A stretch of DNA of 21,690 nucleotides from a virus: the IMG/VR virus record IMGVR_UViG_3300048903_000264, positions 1 to 21,690 of that record; one strand, given 5' to 3'. A program made the translations under genes and the position numbers. Positions within the stretch are counted from its first letter, which is position 1. The number at the start of each line of letters is the position of its first letter. Below the pieces are notes generated by a model. The model did no database searches. It was given only the letters and a program-made list of their open reading frames with translations, and had not been told where the DNA came from. Shown piece after piece: positions 1,858 through 17,876 of this stretch.

Positions 1858-2367
1858 CTACAGGACGCGGGCGTGGGCGAGTTCGGCGGCCCGGTCGAGG
1901 TAGCGGGCGGGCAGTCGGGGGTCGCGCTGGTTGTCGTTCCAGGACGGGACGGTCTCGGCGGTCGGGAAGTCGCGGCGGATCGCCTCCAGCAGGATCACGC
2001 AGGCGTCGTCGGCTGCCCCGCGGCTGGGTGCTTCGGTGCGGATGGCGCCGATCAGGCAGGCCGCGCCCTGCTCGTCGCGGAGCTGCCCGGTGCACCAGCC
2101 GGCCGCGTCGAGGCGCAGCCGGGCCTGGTGGAGGGTGGCTGCGACCGGGGTCGGGTACGGGCACGGGGCCGCGGTGGGGGTAAGCGGTAGCGGGGAGGCG
2201 ATCTCGGGGATGGGGTCGGCTGCCGGGATGTGGGCGGTGTCGACCTCGAAGGACAGGTTGGCGAGGGAGAGGCGTTCATCCATGACGGCGCCCACCAGGG
2301 CCAGCCGCGCGTCCAGGTCGAGGACGACCGGGGCCGCAGCTGTCGTGACCGTGGTGGGCGCGCGCAT
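1858..2367 (-). CDS. DUF6197-like protein
   Basis: A 169-residue protein. The C-terminal half (from about residue 85) matches what I recall of the actinobacterial DUF6197 pattern: GWCTGQLRDEQGAACLIGAI, a helix with an ADDACVILLEAI-type core, the SWNDNQRD segment and a terminal helix (ARYLDRAAELA). The function of this family is unknown; members are common in Streptomyces genomes, plasmids and phages. The N-terminal half is Pro/Ala-rich and probably flexible. The ATG at 2367 shares one base with the stop of the upstream gene (TGATG), so the two are translationally coupled. Family assignment is by memory of the motif, not a search. Confidence 0.8.
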   Translation of the reverse strand: MRAPTTVTTAAAPVVLDLDARLALVGAVMDERLSLANLSFEVDTAHIPAADPIPEIASPLPLTPTAAPCPYPTPVAATLHQARLRLDAAGWCTGQLRDEQGAACLIGAIRTEAPSRGAADDACVILLEAIRRDFPTAETVPSWNDNQRDPRLPARYLDRAAELAHARVL

Positions 2368-2951
2368 CAGGGAGACACCTTCACGGGAGTTGCCCTCACG
2401 CTCGGGGCCGCCGCGGGTGTTGCCGCCATGGCCTGCGCGTACCAGGCCCCGCCGACGCTCTTCGCCTGGTGCTTCTTCTTCTCGTGCACGCGGAGCGACT
2501 TGGTCGCCTCGCGGGCGTCTCGGAAGCGGGGCTTCTCCTTCTTGCCGCAGGGGCAGGTCCAGCCGACCAGGCCCGTGTTCCTGTCGGGGCCGAAGCGGCT
2601 GGCCTTGTAGACGGCCCACTTGGAGACGCGCTGCTTGGTGGGCTTGGCGGGGCAGGGCTTGGAGCCGGTGAAGGATCCGTCCTTGCCCTTGGTGAAGATC
2701 TGTCCGTTGCCGTTGCACTTGGGGCAGCCTTCATGGGTGGCGCGGAGGATCGCCGCGTCCTTGCGGGAGCGGATGACGTCGCCGTGGTCGTCGAGGTGTC
2801 GGACTGCGAAGAGGACCATGCGGCCTGCGATCTGGGCGTGGAGCGGGCCGCCTCGCGGCATCTTGACGCGGGCGGCGCTGCGCTTGCGGGCGGTGGAGGT
2901 GCGGCGGGTCGCGGTGGTGGTTCGGCGGGCTGGCTTGCGCTTCGGGGGCAT
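2367..2951 (-). CDS. basic zinc-finger protein
   Basis: A 194-residue protein. The first 30 residues are extremely basic (KRKPARRTTTATRRTSTARK) and could bind nucleic acid. The middle carries a DnaJ-like or zinc-ribbon pattern (CPKCNGNGQ, then KPCPAK), then a CPCGKKEKP motif about 50 residues later that, with two histidines in VHEKKKH, could make a C2H2-type site. The tail is Ala/Pro-rich. A DNA- or RNA-binding role is likely; no enzyme motif is seen. The ATG at 2951 follows GAGGAG. It is the first gene 3' of traB, separated by the 11-bp repeat array and a candidate promoter, and is coupled to the DUF6197-like gene. Confidence 0.8.
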   Translation of the reverse strand: MPPKRKPARRTTTATRRTSTARKRSAARVKMPRGGPLHAQIAGRMVLFAVRHLDDHGDVIRSRKDAAILRATHEGCPKCNGNGQIFTKGKDGSFTGSKPCPAKPTKQRVSKWAVYKASRFGPDRNTGLVGWTCPCGKKEKPRFRDAREATKSLRVHEKKKHQAKSVGGAWYAQAMAATPAAAPSVRATPVKVSP

Positions 2952-2978
2952 GATCAGGGCTCCTCTTCAAGAACTTCA

Positions 2979-3006
2979 TATATATGGACCAATGGGGTGG
3001 CGGTAA
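2979..3006 (-). promoter_or_regulatory. candidate promoter upstream of zinc-finger gene
   Basis: On the minus strand TTACCG (3006-3001) and TATATA (2984-2979) are separated by 16 bases. The CATATATATG tract is one of the few AT-rich spots in the window. Transcription would start near 2972, giving a leader of about 20 bases with a GAGGAG ribosome binding site. The -35 box abuts the 11-bp repeat array, so a protein bound to the repeats could control it. Confidence 0.45.
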
Positions 3007-3049
3007 CCCGGCGGAAGCCCGGCACGTGCCCGGCGGACACCCGGCGACC
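3006..3049. repeat. four tandem 11-bp repeats, clt-like, 3' of traB
   Basis: Four direct repeats start at 3006, 3017, 3028 and 3039, exactly 11 bases apart: ACCCGGCGGAA, GCCCGGCACGT, GCCCGGCGGAC, ACCCGGCGACC (consensus RCCCGGCGGAM). A degenerate fifth unit, GGGTGGCGGTA, precedes them at 2995, and an inverted copy, TCCGCCGGGT, lies at 3069-3078. The array is non-coding and lies between the traB stop and the next gene. In Streptomyces conjugative plasmids the clt locus, which carries short GACCCGGA-type TraB recognition repeats, is found in a comparable place. The similarity of the CCCGG core is suggestive. The alternative is an operator for the adjacent promoter. Confidence 0.7.
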
Positions 3050-3089
3050 TGCACCGATGCGTTGGATGTCCGCCGGGTCGACGCCGGGG

Positions 3090-5153
3090 CTACGCCGCCT
3101 TCACGCCGGGGCCCTGCCGGGTCTGCGCCGGGTCCAGGAGGCCGGCCGCGGCACGCTCGACGTCCTCTCGCCGCCAGCCCCGCAGGTAGGCCCCTTCGGG
3201 GCAGTCGGTGCGATCGGACTTCGCGCCGGGCGCGTGCTTGCGGAGCCGGTTGGACAGGGCGGTCGCGTCGACTCCTTCCACGCCTGCCGCCTCCAGGACC
3301 GGCAGCAGTACCTCGCTGGTGGGCAGGAAGGTCCGGGCCTTGGCGTGGAAGGCGCGGAGCAGGGCGGCGATGAGCGGCGCGTCGGTGTGGGCGACGGCGT
3401 CGAGGCGTTCGGCGAGGTTGTCGCGCTGCCCGGCTGTGGTGAGGGTGGCGCCGGCCTTGAGGACGGTGTCGCTGTCCATGCGGTTGGCGCCGGCGGTGAG
3501 GCGGTCGGGTACGACGGCGCTGATCTGGTCGCGGGTGTAGCTGTTGAACTGGTAGCGGATGGCCCGGTTGAACAGCCCGCCCATGATCATGGCTTGGCCT
3601 GCGTCGTTGGCGACGGGGCCGACGGCGGGCTTCATGCGGTCGGCGCGCCAGCCCTGGGCGCCTGCGCCCGGCCCGAAGGCAATCTTGATGTCTTCGAAGC
3701 GGCAGGCCATGAGGATCCGGTAGGCGACGATCATTGCGATGGCGTCGCCGAGAGCGTCGGCGGTGGCCTCCTGGCCTGCCATCAGCAGGTAGATGCCGTA
3801 CTGGCGGCCGGTGCGCAGGATCTTGATGGCGAGTTCCTTGCCGCGGGGGCTGAGCTGGATGAACTCGTCGATGTTGATGTACAGGTTGGGGTGCTTCTCG
3901 GTGGCGTGCCACCGGTCCCCCATGCCCAGGGTGGGCAGGAGCTGGCCGCGCGCGGTGACGTAGGACAGGGCCTCTTCGAGGGCTTTCTCGCACTCTTCGG
4001 GGGTTCGAGCACGCCGGGCCATGAGGTCGCCGAACTCGGCGAGCCCGCCCTTGATCGGGTCGAGGTCCCAGACGACGGCGTCGCGGCAGGCGGTGAGCGC
4101 CTCGTTGATCGTGCGCAGCGCTCCGAGGGTCTTGCCCGCGCCCATGGCGCCGATGATGAGGGCGCAGAACCCGTCGAGGGTCAGCTCGAAGACGCTGCCG
4201 TCCATGGCCCGGCCCATCGCGACGGTGTCGTGGACGGACAGGGACCGCGGGGCGTGAACGGCAGGGCGGGGCATGTCGGCGAACGGGTTGGACTGGACGA
4301 GACGCACGATGATCCGGGACTTGTCCCGCGGGTCCGGCTCGATCATGAACCCGCCGTCGGGCAGACCCATCTGCGACTCCAGCTGGTCGGCCTTCGCCTG
4401 GACGCCGCCCGGGGTGGAGCCCTTGAGGACGACCTCCAGCTCCCAGCCCCAGGCGTGGCGGTTCAGGGTCTGGATGTCCCGGTAGTCGGCGCCTTCCGCG
4501 TACAGGGCGCGGCCGAGGCAGTCCGCGGCCTGGCCGCCGGACTGCACCCAGGCGAGCGGGTACGGCTCCTCGCCGTCGGGGTGGTCCTGCTCAGCGATCG
4601 CCTGCATCGGCGCGATCCCGGGCGCATTGGCGCGGTAGCGGCCGTACCAAGTGATCGCTGCGACCGCCGCCGCCGCGGTCAGGCTGGGCGGGATCTTCCA
4701 CGACCAGTCGAGGGCCGTCATCCCGCCGAACTTCACGAGCGCCCACCAGCCGGCCAGGTTCAGCCCGGCGACCGCGCCGGCTGTCCAGCCGAGGAGCCGC
4801 CACCGCTTCCGCCGGACGATGTCGGTCTTGCTCCAGTCGGAGGACTTCGACATGCCGCCGATGGTTTCTTGGTAGTCGTGGGCGCGGACGTAGCGCCAGC
4901 CGAGGAAGCCGACGGCGCGGACTCCGGTGAAGAACCAGCGGGCGGACAGCCCGCACGCCCGGCCGGTGACCGAGGCGACGACCATCGCCGCCGAGCCGGT
5001 CCTGGCAAGGACGGCCGGGCGCGGCTCGTAGGTGGCGACGATGCCGGGCGCGATGTCCTCGCCGGACAGGTCGTCGGGCACGAGGAGTTCGCCGGGGATC
5101 ACCTTCGACGTGTCCCAGCCGGCGGGGAACTCGGGGTGCTGATCGAGGCTCAT
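3090..5153 (-). CDS. traB: TraB/FtsK/SpoIIIE-type DNA translocase
   Basis: A 687-residue membrane-anchored ATPase. Hydrophobic segments at about 71-88, 119-141 and 155-172 would anchor it; a linker leads to the motor domain with Walker A GAMGAGKT (335-342), the DLDPIKGG segment (363-370) and Walker B LYINIDE (424-430). The C-terminal 70 residues, including ALSNRLRKHA and the GAYLRGWRREDV segment, look like a winged helix, as in the FtsK gamma domain and TraB, where it reads short DNA repeats. In Streptomyces plasmids TraB forms a septal hexamer that moves double-stranded DNA into the recipient. The ATG overlaps the stop of the SpdB-like gene by four bases (ATGA). The length fits TraB-type proteins better than full FtsK. 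The gene symbol reflects similarity of type, not proven orthology; a phage-specific DNA segregation role is the main alternative. Confidence 0.88.
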   Translation of the reverse strand: MSLDQHPEFPAGWDTSKVIPGELLVPDDLSGEDIAPGIVATYEPRPAVLARTGSAAMVVASVTGRACGLSARWFFTGVRAVGFLGWRYVRAHDYQETIGGMSKSSDWSKTDIVRRKRWRLLGWTAGAVAGLNLAGWWALVKFGGMTALDWSWKIPPSLTAAAAVAAITWYGRYRANAPGIAPMQAIAEQDHPDGEEPYPLAWVQSGGQAADCLGRALYAEGADYRDIQTLNRHAWGWELEVVLKGSTPGGVQAKADQLESQMGLPDGGFMIEPDPRDKSRIIVRLVQSNPFADMPRPAVHAPRSLSVHDTVAMGRAMDGSVFELTLDGFCALIIGAMGAGKTLGALRTINEALTACRDAVVWDLDPIKGGLAEFGDLMARRARTPEECEKALEEALSYVTARGQLLPTLGMGDRWHATEKHPNLYINIDEFIQLSPRGKELAIKILRTGRQYGIYLLMAGQEATADALGDAIAMIVAYRILMACRFEDIKIAFGPGAGAQGWRADRMKPAVGPVANDAGQAMIMGGLFNRAIRYQFNSYTRDQISAVVPDRLTAGANRMDSDTVLKAGATLTTAGQRDNLAERLDAVAHTDAPLIAALLRAFHAKARTFLPTSEVLLPVLEAAGVEGVDATALSNRLRKHAPGAKSDRTDCPEGAYLRGWRREDVERAAAGLLDPAQTRQGPGVKAA

Positions 5154-6415
5154 GACGCGTCCTTCTGGCGGGCGTTCTTGGCGGCGATGGAGGCTTGGCG
5201 GCGGGCGCCTGCGGACTGCTTCGGGGCGTCACCCTTGGTGCGCTTTCCGGGGCGTGCTGGCGGGTTGTAAATGCGGGGCGGCTTGGCTCCGAGCACTTGC
5301 GATGCGACCTGCTGTGATGATCCGTTTACGGGGCGCTTCTCGCGGGCTGCGGCAACCCTCGCTTCGGCGGCGTTCCGCATGCGGATTACCTCCGCAGACT
5401 CACCCGGCTTGGCGCCCTCGACGTCGAGCTTGGCTCGATCCCAAATCGCGTCGGTGACAGTCGCCTGACCGAGGTCGGCGGCGAGCTTCACGGCGTGCTC
5501 CCAGACCTTCGGGAACATCGTTTCGCGTCGGGCGGCGAGCGTCGCCGCAGCCTCCTCGGCTGCCTTGCGCGCGGCCTCTTCCTTGGCGGCCCGCTGCTTG
5601 GCCTCGGCAGCCAGGCGTGCGGCCTCGGCGCGTTCCGCCTGACGCTTCGCTCGCCGCTCGCGTCGGGTGAGTGCGCCGTCGCGCTTACGAATACGGCCGT
5701 GTTCGTGGAGGTCCCAGACGCCGGGGCCGGCGATCGACGCGAACGCGGTTCCGATCGCGGTGGCGGGGTCGAAGGCGTTGAGGCCATGCCACAGGTTGAT
5801 GCCGGCGGCGATGAACGCGAGGAGCCAGGCGATCAGCCGGTAGTGCCAGTGCGGGCGGTGTGAGGCGACCGCCGCGGCGGCGCCCTTGAGGACGACCCAG
5901 GCGCCACCTTCGAGCATGAGAGGCGCGGCCATCAGCCAGATCGCGTGCGGGTTGTAGAAGGCGTTGATCTGGACAGGCAGCGCGACGACGGCGCAGACGC
6001 GGTAGAAGTTCACCGCGTAGGAGCGCCAGCGGTCCTCGGCTTCGGCGACCTCGCTGGCCTGTGCCGCCTCGGCCTTCTGCTGCTCCTCGGCCTGCCGCCG
6101 GGCTGCGTCGCGGGCTCGCTCGGTCTCCTCGCGTTCGGCGTCTGCCTTCGCGATCTTCGCCTCTTCGACGGCCCGCTCGCGGCGGAAGCGCAGCTCGTTG
6201 CGCTGGTTGGCGAGGCCCTGCTTCTCGTTCTCCAGCCGCAACTGCTCAGCCTGCTCGGCGGCCAGAGCTTTCGCGGCTTCGGCCCGCGCGAGCATCGCCT
6301 GGCGTTCGGCGGCGGCGCGGGCTCGGATCGCCTCCGCCTCGGCGACGCGCACGGGATCCACGCGCGGCTCGGAGGCAACGGACGTTCCGTTGACCTTCTC
6401 GACGGAGGTGGTCAC
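5150..6415 (-). CDS. SpdB/DUF2637-like membrane protein with coiled coils
   Basis: A 421-residue protein. Residues about 20-130 form a long Ala/Glu/Arg coiled coil. A four-helix membrane domain follows (about 131-230), with motifs such as NFYRVCAVVALPVQINAFY and GINLWHGLN typical of the DUF2637/SpdB2 group. A second coiled coil covers about 240-300, and the tail is basic and may touch DNA. In Streptomyces plasmids Spd proteins act with TraB in spreading plasmid DNA through the mycelium. The start is GTG at 6415 with AAAGGA ten bases upstream. Its end overlaps the traB start by four bases, so the two proteins are made together and probably form one envelope complex. Confidence 0.8.
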   Translation of the reverse strand: MTTSVEKVNGTSVASEPRVDPVRVAEAEAIRARAAAERQAMLARAEAAKALAAEQAEQLRLENEKQGLANQRNELRFRRERAVEEAKIAKADAEREETERARDAARRQAEEQQKAEAAQASEVAEAEDRWRSYAVNFYRVCAVVALPVQINAFYNPHAIWLMAAPLMLEGGAWVVLKGAAAAVASHRPHWHYRLIAWLLAFIAAGINLWHGLNAFDPATAIGTAFASIAGPGVWDLHEHGRIRKRDGALTRRERRAKRQAERAEAARLAAEAKQRAAKEEAARKAAEEAAATLAARRETMFPKVWEHAVKLAADLGQATVTDAIWDRAKLDVEGAKPGESAEVIRMRNAAEARVAAAREKRPVNGSSQQVASQVLGAKPPRIYNPPARPGKRTKGDAPKQSAGARRQASIAAKNARQKDAS

Positions 6416-8695: not shown

Positions 8696-9427
8696 ATGAC
8701 GCCCAGGACGGGCTACGCCGAGATCGCCGGGAAGTACCGGCGACTCATTCAGGACGGAGAGCTCGCACCTGGCGATGTACTTCCGTCCATGCGAGAGGTG
8801 AGCGAAGAGACCGGCGCCGCAATCGCGACGGTCAACCGCGCCTTTCAGATCCTCAAGTCGGAAGGTCTGACCGAAGTCAGGCCGGGCCGAGGCACCGTGG
8901 TTGCCGAGCACACGGACGTGGCCGTGACCGGTGCCGCCCGATTGGAGCGACTGAAGCGCACAGGGCAAACGCGTGCCCCGGGCGAGTCGTCCAGTCATCA
9001 CTGGCAGGCGATGCGGTCGGTCGCCGATCCGCTCATCGCCAGGCTGCTCGATGTCGAACCGCACGACGAGATCGTCATCCGTCGCAGGGTGCATCACCGC
9101 GAGGGTGCACCGTCCACCTTCGACAGTTCGTTCATTCACGTGCGCGCACTCGGCACTGTGCCGGAGATCCTGGAAGACGGTCCACTGGAGCGCTGGTGGC
9201 AAGAGCTGTACAAGGAGCGCACCGGCCGCGAGGTCACTAGGTCTCCGGAGCGACGTACCGCTCGGATCATCTCAAGCACCGAGCTGGAAGCCCTGGGAGT
9301 CGACCTGTCCCCCGAGGTCACCGCCGCCGTACTGGTTGTCGTCAACGTGTTCCATGACGAGGACGGTCCGCTTGAAGTCTGGGAGGACGTCTATCCTCCC
9401 GGCGCCTGGCAGGCCGACGCCGAATAA
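8696..9427 (+). CDS. GntR/HutC-family transcriptional regulator (KorA/TraR type)
   Basis: A 243-residue regulator. Residues 5-75 form the GntR winged HTH: GYAEIAGKYRRLIQDGELAP, then LPSMREVSEETG, the recognition helix ATVNRAFQILKSEG and the wing VRPGRGTVV. Residues about 95-235 match the UTRA effector domain of the HutC subgroup (IVIRRRVHHREG, PLEVWEDVYPPG). KorA of pIJ101 and TraR of pSN22-type plasmids are GntR regulators of similar size that silence tra genes and their own promoter. The divergent position opposite the operon leading to spdB and traB fits that role. The ATG at 8696 follows GGAGAG closely. What ligand, if any, UTRA binds is unknown; a metabolic GntR role is unlikely in this context. 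Confidence 0.9.
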   Translation: MTPRTGYAEIAGKYRRLIQDGELAPGDVLPSMREVSEETGAAIATVNRAFQILKSEGLTEVRPGRGTVVAEHTDVAVTGAARLERLKRTGQTRAPGESSSHHWQAMRSVADPLIARLLDVEPHDEIVIRRRVHHREGAPSTFDSSFIHVRALGTVPEILEDGPLERWWQELYKERTGREVTRSPERRTARIISSTELEALGVDLSPEVTAAVLVVVNVFHDEDGPLEVWEDVYPPGAWQADAE

Positions 9428-16917: not shown

Positions 16918-17778
16918 TCAGAAGTCCTCGTCGTAGATGGATTGATCGGCGGGGTTGCGGTACGGCTGGTAGCCGCCGGCAACGGCGCGGAGCTGTGGAC
17001 GGTCGGTGCCGGCGGGAGGCAGCGGCGGGAGTTCGCCCCAGCCTTTGAGGAAGTAGTTCGCCGACTCGACGTCGGTTCGGGCTGAGGCTTTGCGGGCGTG
17101 GTCGACCATGGCGGGCACGCCGCTCTTGGCGATCATCGCGAGGATGGGGAACCAGCCGTTGCCCTTGAAGGGCCAGCGGACGTAGATGCCTGCTGCGGTG
17201 ATGCCGTCGACGAGCGGGCGGGCGTCTTCGGGGATTCCGTAGCCGAGGGCTCCGGGCCGGCTCTCCTGCTTGCTAGCTAGAGGGGTAGTAGTTGAGGGGT
17301 TAAGAGGGGTAGGGGTCCCGGAATCCGGGACACTGACGTCCCGGATTTCCTGACACTGAGACGGCTCAGTGTCCGCATTTCCCTGACACTGACCGTTCGG
17401 GTCAGTGTCAGGAGTTCCGGGACTCTGAGGGCCGTCAGTGTCCCGGTTTCCGGGACTCTGAGAGGGCGGCTCAGTGTCAGCGATTCCGGGACACTGAACC
17501 TCGGGGAACTTGGCGAGCTGGTACTTGGCGGTGCCGTTCTTCTGGCCGGCTGCGAGCTTCGTGAGGACACCCTTGGCGGCCAGCGACTTGAGGACCGCGT
17601 AGAGCTGCGAGCGACTGAGCTTCGCCCCGCGGAGTACCTCGGGTCGCTCGACGCTGTTCCACGTGACGCGGGTGTCGTCGTTGGCGTCCTCGGCCAGGAC
17701 GACGAGGAGGAGCTTCTCCCTGTGCGTCAGGGCCTCGGGTGCGCTGGTGAGCACCTCGACGATCAGGCGGATTCCCAC
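16918..17778 (-). CDS. replication initiator with iterons inside the gene
   Basis: A 286-residue protein. Residues 1-92 form a winged helix (LTHREKLLLVVLAED, then LSRSQLYAVLKSLAAKGVL and a basic wing AAGQKNGTAKYQL). Residues about 94-155 are a low-complexity stretch of 11- to 12-residue repeats such as SPGNRDTDG, SPGTPDTDP and CQGNADTEP, which are the translation of DNA iterons. The C-terminal part (about 175-270; YVRWPFKGNGWFPILAMIAK) resembles DnaD/phage replisome-organiser domains that recruit the loader. This is the arrangement of lambda O and similar initiators, which bind iterons in their own gene. GTG at 17778 is chosen after GAGAGAAG; the frame extends upstream through the promoter and is not used. 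Confidence 0.82.
   Translation of the reverse strand: MGIRLIVEVLTSAPEALTHREKLLLVVLAEDANDDTRVTWNSVERPEVLRGAKLSRSQLYAVLKSLAAKGVLTKLAAGQKNGTAKYQLAKFPEVQCPGIADTEPPSQSPGNRDTDGPQSPGTPDTDPNGQCQGNADTEPSQCQEIRDVSVPDSGTPTPLNPSTTTPLASKQESRPGALGYGIPEDARPLVDGITAAGIYVRWPFKGNGWFPILAMIAKSGVPAMVDHARKASARTDVESANYFLKGWGELPPLPPAGTDRPQLRAVAGGYQPYRNPADQSIYDEDF
17281..17316. other. low-GC purine-rich tract beside the iterons (possible unwinding element)
   Basis: Reading plus, GAGGGGT or AGGGGT occurs at 17281, 17294, 17304 and 17311, separated by TAGTAGT and TAAG, with CTAGCTAG just before. The tract is all purine and T, clearly lower in GC than its surroundings, and directly joins the iteron array. Lambda-type origins have an AT-rich element next to the iterons where the strands open, so this is the likely counterpart. 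The encoded peptide (PTPLNPSTTTPL) is a plain Pro/Thr linker, consistent with selection on the DNA. Confidence 0.5.
17310..17497. repeat. six 27-bp iterons, putative replication origin
   Basis: Six copies of a 27-base interrupted palindrome lie at 17310, 17333, 17366, 17402, 17435 and 17471. The four rightmost have both arms, TCAGTGTC and GAC(A/T)CTGA around 11 bases often reading CCGGNNTTCCGG. The two leftmost keep the GACACTGA arm only. Spacing is 33 or 36 bases for the last four and 23 between the first two. All fall inside the coding sequence of the winged-helix protein, whose own N-terminal domain is the probable binder. Confidence 0.85.
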
Positions 17779-17821
17779 GGGTGTCTTCTCTCGATCGCAA
17801 CTGCGTGCAGGGCTGGCGGTG

Positions 17822-17851
17822 TTGGCAGGGCCGGTCCTCCGCTGCCATACT
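17822..17851 (+). promoter_or_regulatory. promoter of the Phd-like gene
   Basis: TTGGCA (17822-17827), 18 bases, CATACT (17846-17851). Transcription would start near 17858, giving a leader of about 28 bases that contains the ATTGG repeats and the ribosome binding site. Confidence 0.5.
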
Positions 17852-17876
17852 ACTTTAAAGATTGGCCACATTGGAA
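17847..17876 (-). promoter_or_regulatory. promoter of the replication operon
   Basis: On the minus strand TTCCAA (17876-17871), 18 bases, TAGTAT (17852-17847). Its -10 box overlaps that of the rightward promoter with an offset of one base, and its -35 box lies in the ATTGG repeats. It would drive initiator, loader, helicase and the rest of the middle operon. Confidence 0.5.

Follow-up and report, generated by a model that had tools for sequence, protein, structure and literature searches.

A two-armed array of 11-bp repeats at the 3' end of a traB-like gene is a putative clt-type loading site that co-varies with the winged helix of its translocase

The window that we analyzed is the whole of a virus record of 21,690 bases (IMGVR_UViG_3300048903_000264), in which a repeat array lies at the 3' end of a traB-like translocase gene (Table 1). 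The 687-aa translocase has an FtsK/SpoIIIE-like match in PHROG (E value of 5.5e-92), and its Walker motifs, Walker A GAMGAGKT and INIDEF, both align to those of pIJ101 TraB. The similarity of the motor to pIJ101 TraB is only remote (E value of 8e-4; hhalign probability, 24%), and we found neither a Pfam match nor a PDB sequence match for the motor. An AlphaFold2 model of full-length TraB was too poor for use (pLDDT of 45), while a model of residues 568 to 687, built from 16 aligned C-termini, reached a pLDDT of 81.5 and places helices and strands in the order H-E-H-H-E-E-H. The structural matches of this predicted domain are generic winged-helix proteins only (Z up to 5.9), with no Foldseek match at an E value of ≤0.001 and no PDB sequence match. 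FtsK gamma domains were not among the Foldseek matches listed, which excludes nothing.

Table 1. Positions of the array, the translocase gene, and neighboring features in the window
Feature	Coordinates	Strand	Basis or remark
Arm B, four 11-bp units NNCCCGGCNNN	3005-3048	+	Repeats first reported
Arm A, six 11-bp units GACCCGGCGNN	3069-3134	-	One unit degenerate, five with intact CCCGGC
Spacer between the converging arms, 20 bp	3049-3068		
Conserved core YGCAGGY	3047-3053	-	TGCAGGT in the window
Flank CCATTGGTCCATATATATGAAGTTCTT, type ATTGATCCATATATGTGAAGTTC	2969-2995	-	Between the array and the next gene
traB-like gene, 687 aa, FtsK/SpoIIIE-type motor and C-terminal winged helix	3090-5153	-	ORF; PHROG
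C-terminal winged-helix domain of TraB, residues about 590-679	3117-3386	-	AlphaFold2; proposed array reader
Predicted recognition helix alpha3, residues 630-640	3234-3266	-	AlphaFold2 model
Predicted wing, residues 647-657	3183-3215	-	Separates CCCGGC-type from CCCGTCT-type TraB
Upstream gene, 421 aa, overlaps traB	5150-6415	-	SpdB-like position; no family match
Downstream gene, 194 aa, basic N-terminus, CxxC motifs	2367-2951	-	No family match

Arm B lies just past the translocase stop codon, where the original prediction had placed the repeats. Its units start at 3005, 3016, 3027, and 3038 on the plus strand, with invariant CCCGGC cores at 3007, 3018, 3029, and 3040. These had been described as four exact 11-bp units; the spacing and the core are indeed exact, but the unit varies at its remaining bases. 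What had been noted as an inverted copy nearby proved to be a complete second arm, arm A, which is larger than the reported one and has six registers, starting at 3134, 3123, 3112, 3101 (degenerate), 3090, and 3079 on the minus strand, where they read GACCCGGCGCA GACCCGGCAGG GCCCCGGCGTG AAGGCGGCGTA GCCCCGGCGTC GACCCGGCGGA. The first four registers fall within the last traB codons, and the degenerate one extends into the stop codon, so that arm A begins inside traB and crosses its end. Tandem Repeats Finder reported a period of 11 in the region of arm A, from 3071 to 3136. The array thus spans 3005 to 3134 as two converging arms, one of them partly inside traB, rather than the interval from 2995 to 3078 first assigned to it. 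A degenerate fifth plus-strand unit, also proposed at the outset, is not convincing, and its place is occupied by the nonrepeat sequence YGCAGGY.

The array stands out from the rest of the window, in which CCCGGC is the sole 6-mer with at least four consecutive copies at any spacing from 8 to 15 bp. Runs of at least three CCCGGC at 11 bp were absent from all 1,000 dinucleotide-preserving shuffles of the window, as was any 6-mer run of four or more at spacings of 8 to 15 bp from all 300 shuffles examined for it. In relatives of 88.6 and 84.8 kb, runs of at least three CCCGG at 11 or 22 bp occur only behind traB, and array-type runs were found nowhere else in the 195 kb that these two elements and the window comprise. 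When codons for the same residue were compared, 86% were identical over the last 17 traB codons and 60% over the preceding 63 codons, a difference that points to selection on the DNA of arm A itself.

We then read the corresponding region in ten viral contigs, two genome contigs, four plasmids, and further loci from searches of 393 and 395 genomes; a megablast of the whole window against phages had returned methylase fragments only. A repeat array is present in all 36 traB relatives that have an intergenic gap, among them phage records, plasmids, and chromosomes, and YGCAGGY is present in 35 of them; locus L010 has a weak, diverged array without this core. The core was found in 29 of 29 scored loci, with 0.007 expected per locus, and in 7 of 7 held-out loci. 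Conserved repeats behind traB, which the original prediction had proposed to look for, are thus kept in relatives, in favor of that prediction, which their absence from close relatives with traB was to have refuted; the exceptions are the BE-type phages, which lack an intergenic gap.

The repeat unit itself, in classes assigned by eye, is CCCGGC in class A, CCCGTCT in class B, CCCGTCC in class C, TGCTC in class D, CGTGAC in class E, TGCTA in class F, and CTCTAC in class G, and locus L064 has a further unit, GATCAG. Classes A and B show the 11-bp step and the converging arms most clearly; the other classes are less regular. YGCAGGY, between or beside the arms, persists even where the repeat units are entirely different, and in most loci of classes D to G it is accompanied by an inverted second copy on the opposite side. 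The 194-aa downstream protein adjoins the array in most loci of the window type, and a different gene is found beside class E arrays. The flank listed in Table 1, which separates the array from the next gene, is kept across classes A to C despite the changing unit and lies close to where the L008/L009 swap described below ends on the right; it could be a regulatory element or a recombination boundary. The 84.8-kb relative G006 (L053 to L057) carries integrase, portal, large terminase, major head protein, tape measure, and tail genes together with traB and the array. G006 can be described as a tailed prophage that also carries a conjugation-type module, and from its head, tail, and integrase genes, at least some array carriers are tailed temperate phages.

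With array similarity computed on the noncoding part only, the array followed the winged helix across 30 loci once motor similarity was removed (partial r of 0.707; P = 0.0005), and the partial r with the motor, once winged-helix similarity was removed, was 0.09. Across 34 loci, the value for the winged helix was 0.715 (P = 0.0005; motor, 0.13). It was 0.687 (P = 0.0005; motor, 0.11) when the tail of the winged helix, which arm A encodes, was omitted and 0.669 (P = 0.0005; motor, 0.03) when the proximal arm was omitted too, leaving the distal arm alone. Array class changes 10 times on the motor tree and 7 times on the winged-helix tree, the minimum possible being 6. For seven held-out loci, the unit predicted from the nearest winged-helix neighbor was exact in five and near in one (TGCTA for TGCTC), and the seventh locus had a new unit. 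The winged helix and the array are physically adjacent, so linkage alone gives some co-inheritance.

Individual loci document joint replacement of the two. The motors of L008 and L009 are 98% identical, and their winged helices and arrays are clearly different: the DNA is about 90% identical until 360 bases before the stop codon, drops to about 57 to 64% over the winged helix and array, and returns to 91% from position +140. The winged-helix/array pair of L009 matches that of L034 to L037. In addition, L033, L039, and L063 have window-type motors joined to a D/F-type winged helix and a D/F-type array. Winged helix and array thus appear to have been exchanged together between phages, plasmids, and chromosomes. 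Taken together, the co-variation and the joint swaps give good support to the view that the TraB winged helix would set the specificity of the array. Residue 635, in predicted helix alpha3, separates class A from class B TraB in the alignment comparison, which points to this residue and the predicted wing as candidates for the choice between CCCGGC and CCCGTCT. The GntR protein and the 194-aa downstream protein, also considered as determinants of the array, do not follow array class.

These results speak for the clt-like site that the original prediction had proposed for the winged helix of the translocase, as the array follows the winged helix and not the motor and the two are swapped together. 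Because the array changes sequence only with the DNA-binding tail of TraB, it is very probably a cis-acting clt-type site at which the adjacent translocase, a DNA pump, would be loaded. A role in which TraB binds the array mainly to orient or stop the motor, in the manner of KOPS, or to regulate traB, instead of loading for transfer, seems unlikely to us. FtsK-family winged helices do read polar DNA signals, and the arms converge, but the repeats form clustered runs once per element and are not spread as polar signals.

We consider it improbable that the array is an operator for a regulator of the transfer genes, such as the GntR protein (8696 to 9427), the MerR-like protein (1017 to 1343), or the downstream 194-aa protein. 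The repeats do lie between two genes, a GntR-UTRA gene is present within the window, and GntR-type (Kor) regulators often control the transfer genes of Streptomyces. However, G005 and G006 share the array class of the window, yet their GntR proteins are no more than 30 to 40% identical to the window protein; L033 has a different array class, yet its downstream protein and that of the window are 75% identical; and part of the array lies in protein-coding sequence inside traB.

Plasmid centromeres such as parC of R1 also have 11-bp-spaced repeats in two arms, and phage-plasmids need sites for replication and partition. That the array is such a centromere or a set of replication iterons is nevertheless very improbable, given that its position at the traB 3' end is constant and that its sequence follows the winged helix of TraB. 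The neighboring genes, examined for a ParR/ParM or Rep gene that could read the repeats, have no family match. The window also holds repeats GTCAGTGTC..TTCCGGGACACTGA with a period of 33 to 36 bp at 17315 to 17497, inside a replication-initiator-like ORF (16918 to 17871), and these are better candidates for replication iterons. An RNA hairpin or terminator after traB is hardly credible despite the inverted arms and an MFE z score of -2.3, because cross-arm pairing, at 91 to 92% in the unit cores, is 51 to 60% in the bases between them, making a conserved RNA stem unlikely, and neither a T-run nor an Rfam match was found. A promoter at the array was considered alongside the terminator and rejected.

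The reading that we favor for the array, a loading site for TraB, can be set out by analogy with TraB systems studied experimentally, in which the winged helix reads 8-bp repeats, the protein forms a hexameric ring, and double-stranded DNA is transferred (PMC3583192, PMC5133688, PMC4170104). We infer that each 11-bp unit, one per helical turn, would be physically bound and read by one TraB C-terminal winged helix, that the two converging arms would assemble a TraB hexamer or hexamers on double-stranded DNA, and that the motor would then feed the element across the membrane, either in transfer or in spreading through the mycelium. The array and the adjacent sequence coding for the winged helix would be exchanged as one cassette, and through such joint exchange new DNA specificities would arise with the reader already matched. 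More tentatively, the winged helix and array may form a self-matched specificity cassette that moves among Streptomyces phages, conjugative plasmids, and chromosomal elements and sets which DNA TraB pumps, with YGCAGGY as a second element that all classes need, for example, as a start point or the site of a shared partner. It is possible, if doubtful, that tailed temperate phages could thereby spread as double-stranded DNA between hyphae without particles.

In the literature searched, the two-armed, 11-bp-phased form with a core shared across classes is new, as are the seven or more repeat lexicons and the natural swapping of winged-helix/array cassettes. With at least seven lexicons paired with reader domains, the natural domain swaps are ready-made experiments, so that both the code by which TraB recognizes DNA and the way transfer specificity evolves become directly testable. 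The arrays also predict that pFP1/SCP2-type plasmids and tailed prophages carry transfer sites absent from their annotation.

Several known elements share parts of this arrangement. The Streptomyces plasmid-phage pZL12 is likewise a tailed phage with an FtsK-type tra gene, behind which we found no array. BE-type Streptomyces phages (Jay2Jay and kin; L024 to L027) encode an FtsK-like translocase with a motor 35 to 40% identical, but they have no array and no intergenic gap, the next gene abutting, which indicates that an array is not always required in the wider family of translocases. The pFP1/SCP2-type plasmids (L028 to L031) have an array behind an FtsK-type gene with the same CGCAGGTC core, but their unit is CTCTAC / GTAGAG and they have two inverted copies of the core; no array feature is among their listed annotations. 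A clt that overlaps the 3' end of the translocase gene and has direct and inverted repeats is already known from pWTY27, where it begins 16 bp inside traA and the repeats were footprinted by TraA (PMC3583192). The window array likewise starts inside the 3' end of its translocase gene, but by about four units, and the pWTY27 motifs, TGACACC and CCCGCCC, are different. TraB of pSVH1 reads its 8-bp repeats through alpha3 of the winged helix (PMC5133688, PMC3583192), much as we propose for the putative reader here. The suggestion of a new recognition specificity is weak for the CCCGGC unit: GACCCGGC, the best-matching form in the window and one found in several units, agrees with the literature consensus of the pSVH1 TRS, GACCCGGA (PMC5133688), at 7 of 8 bases without being identical to it. 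The case for new specificities appears clearer in the relatives (CCCGTCT, CCCGTCC, TGCTC, CGTGAC, and CTCTAC). The window also differs from pSVH1 in its 11-bp-phased units, its two converging arms, its central YGCAGGY, and its presence on a virus record. It shares with the TraB/clt systems an FtsK/SpoIIIE-type motor, a predicted C-terminal winged helix, and a cis array at the 3' end of traB.
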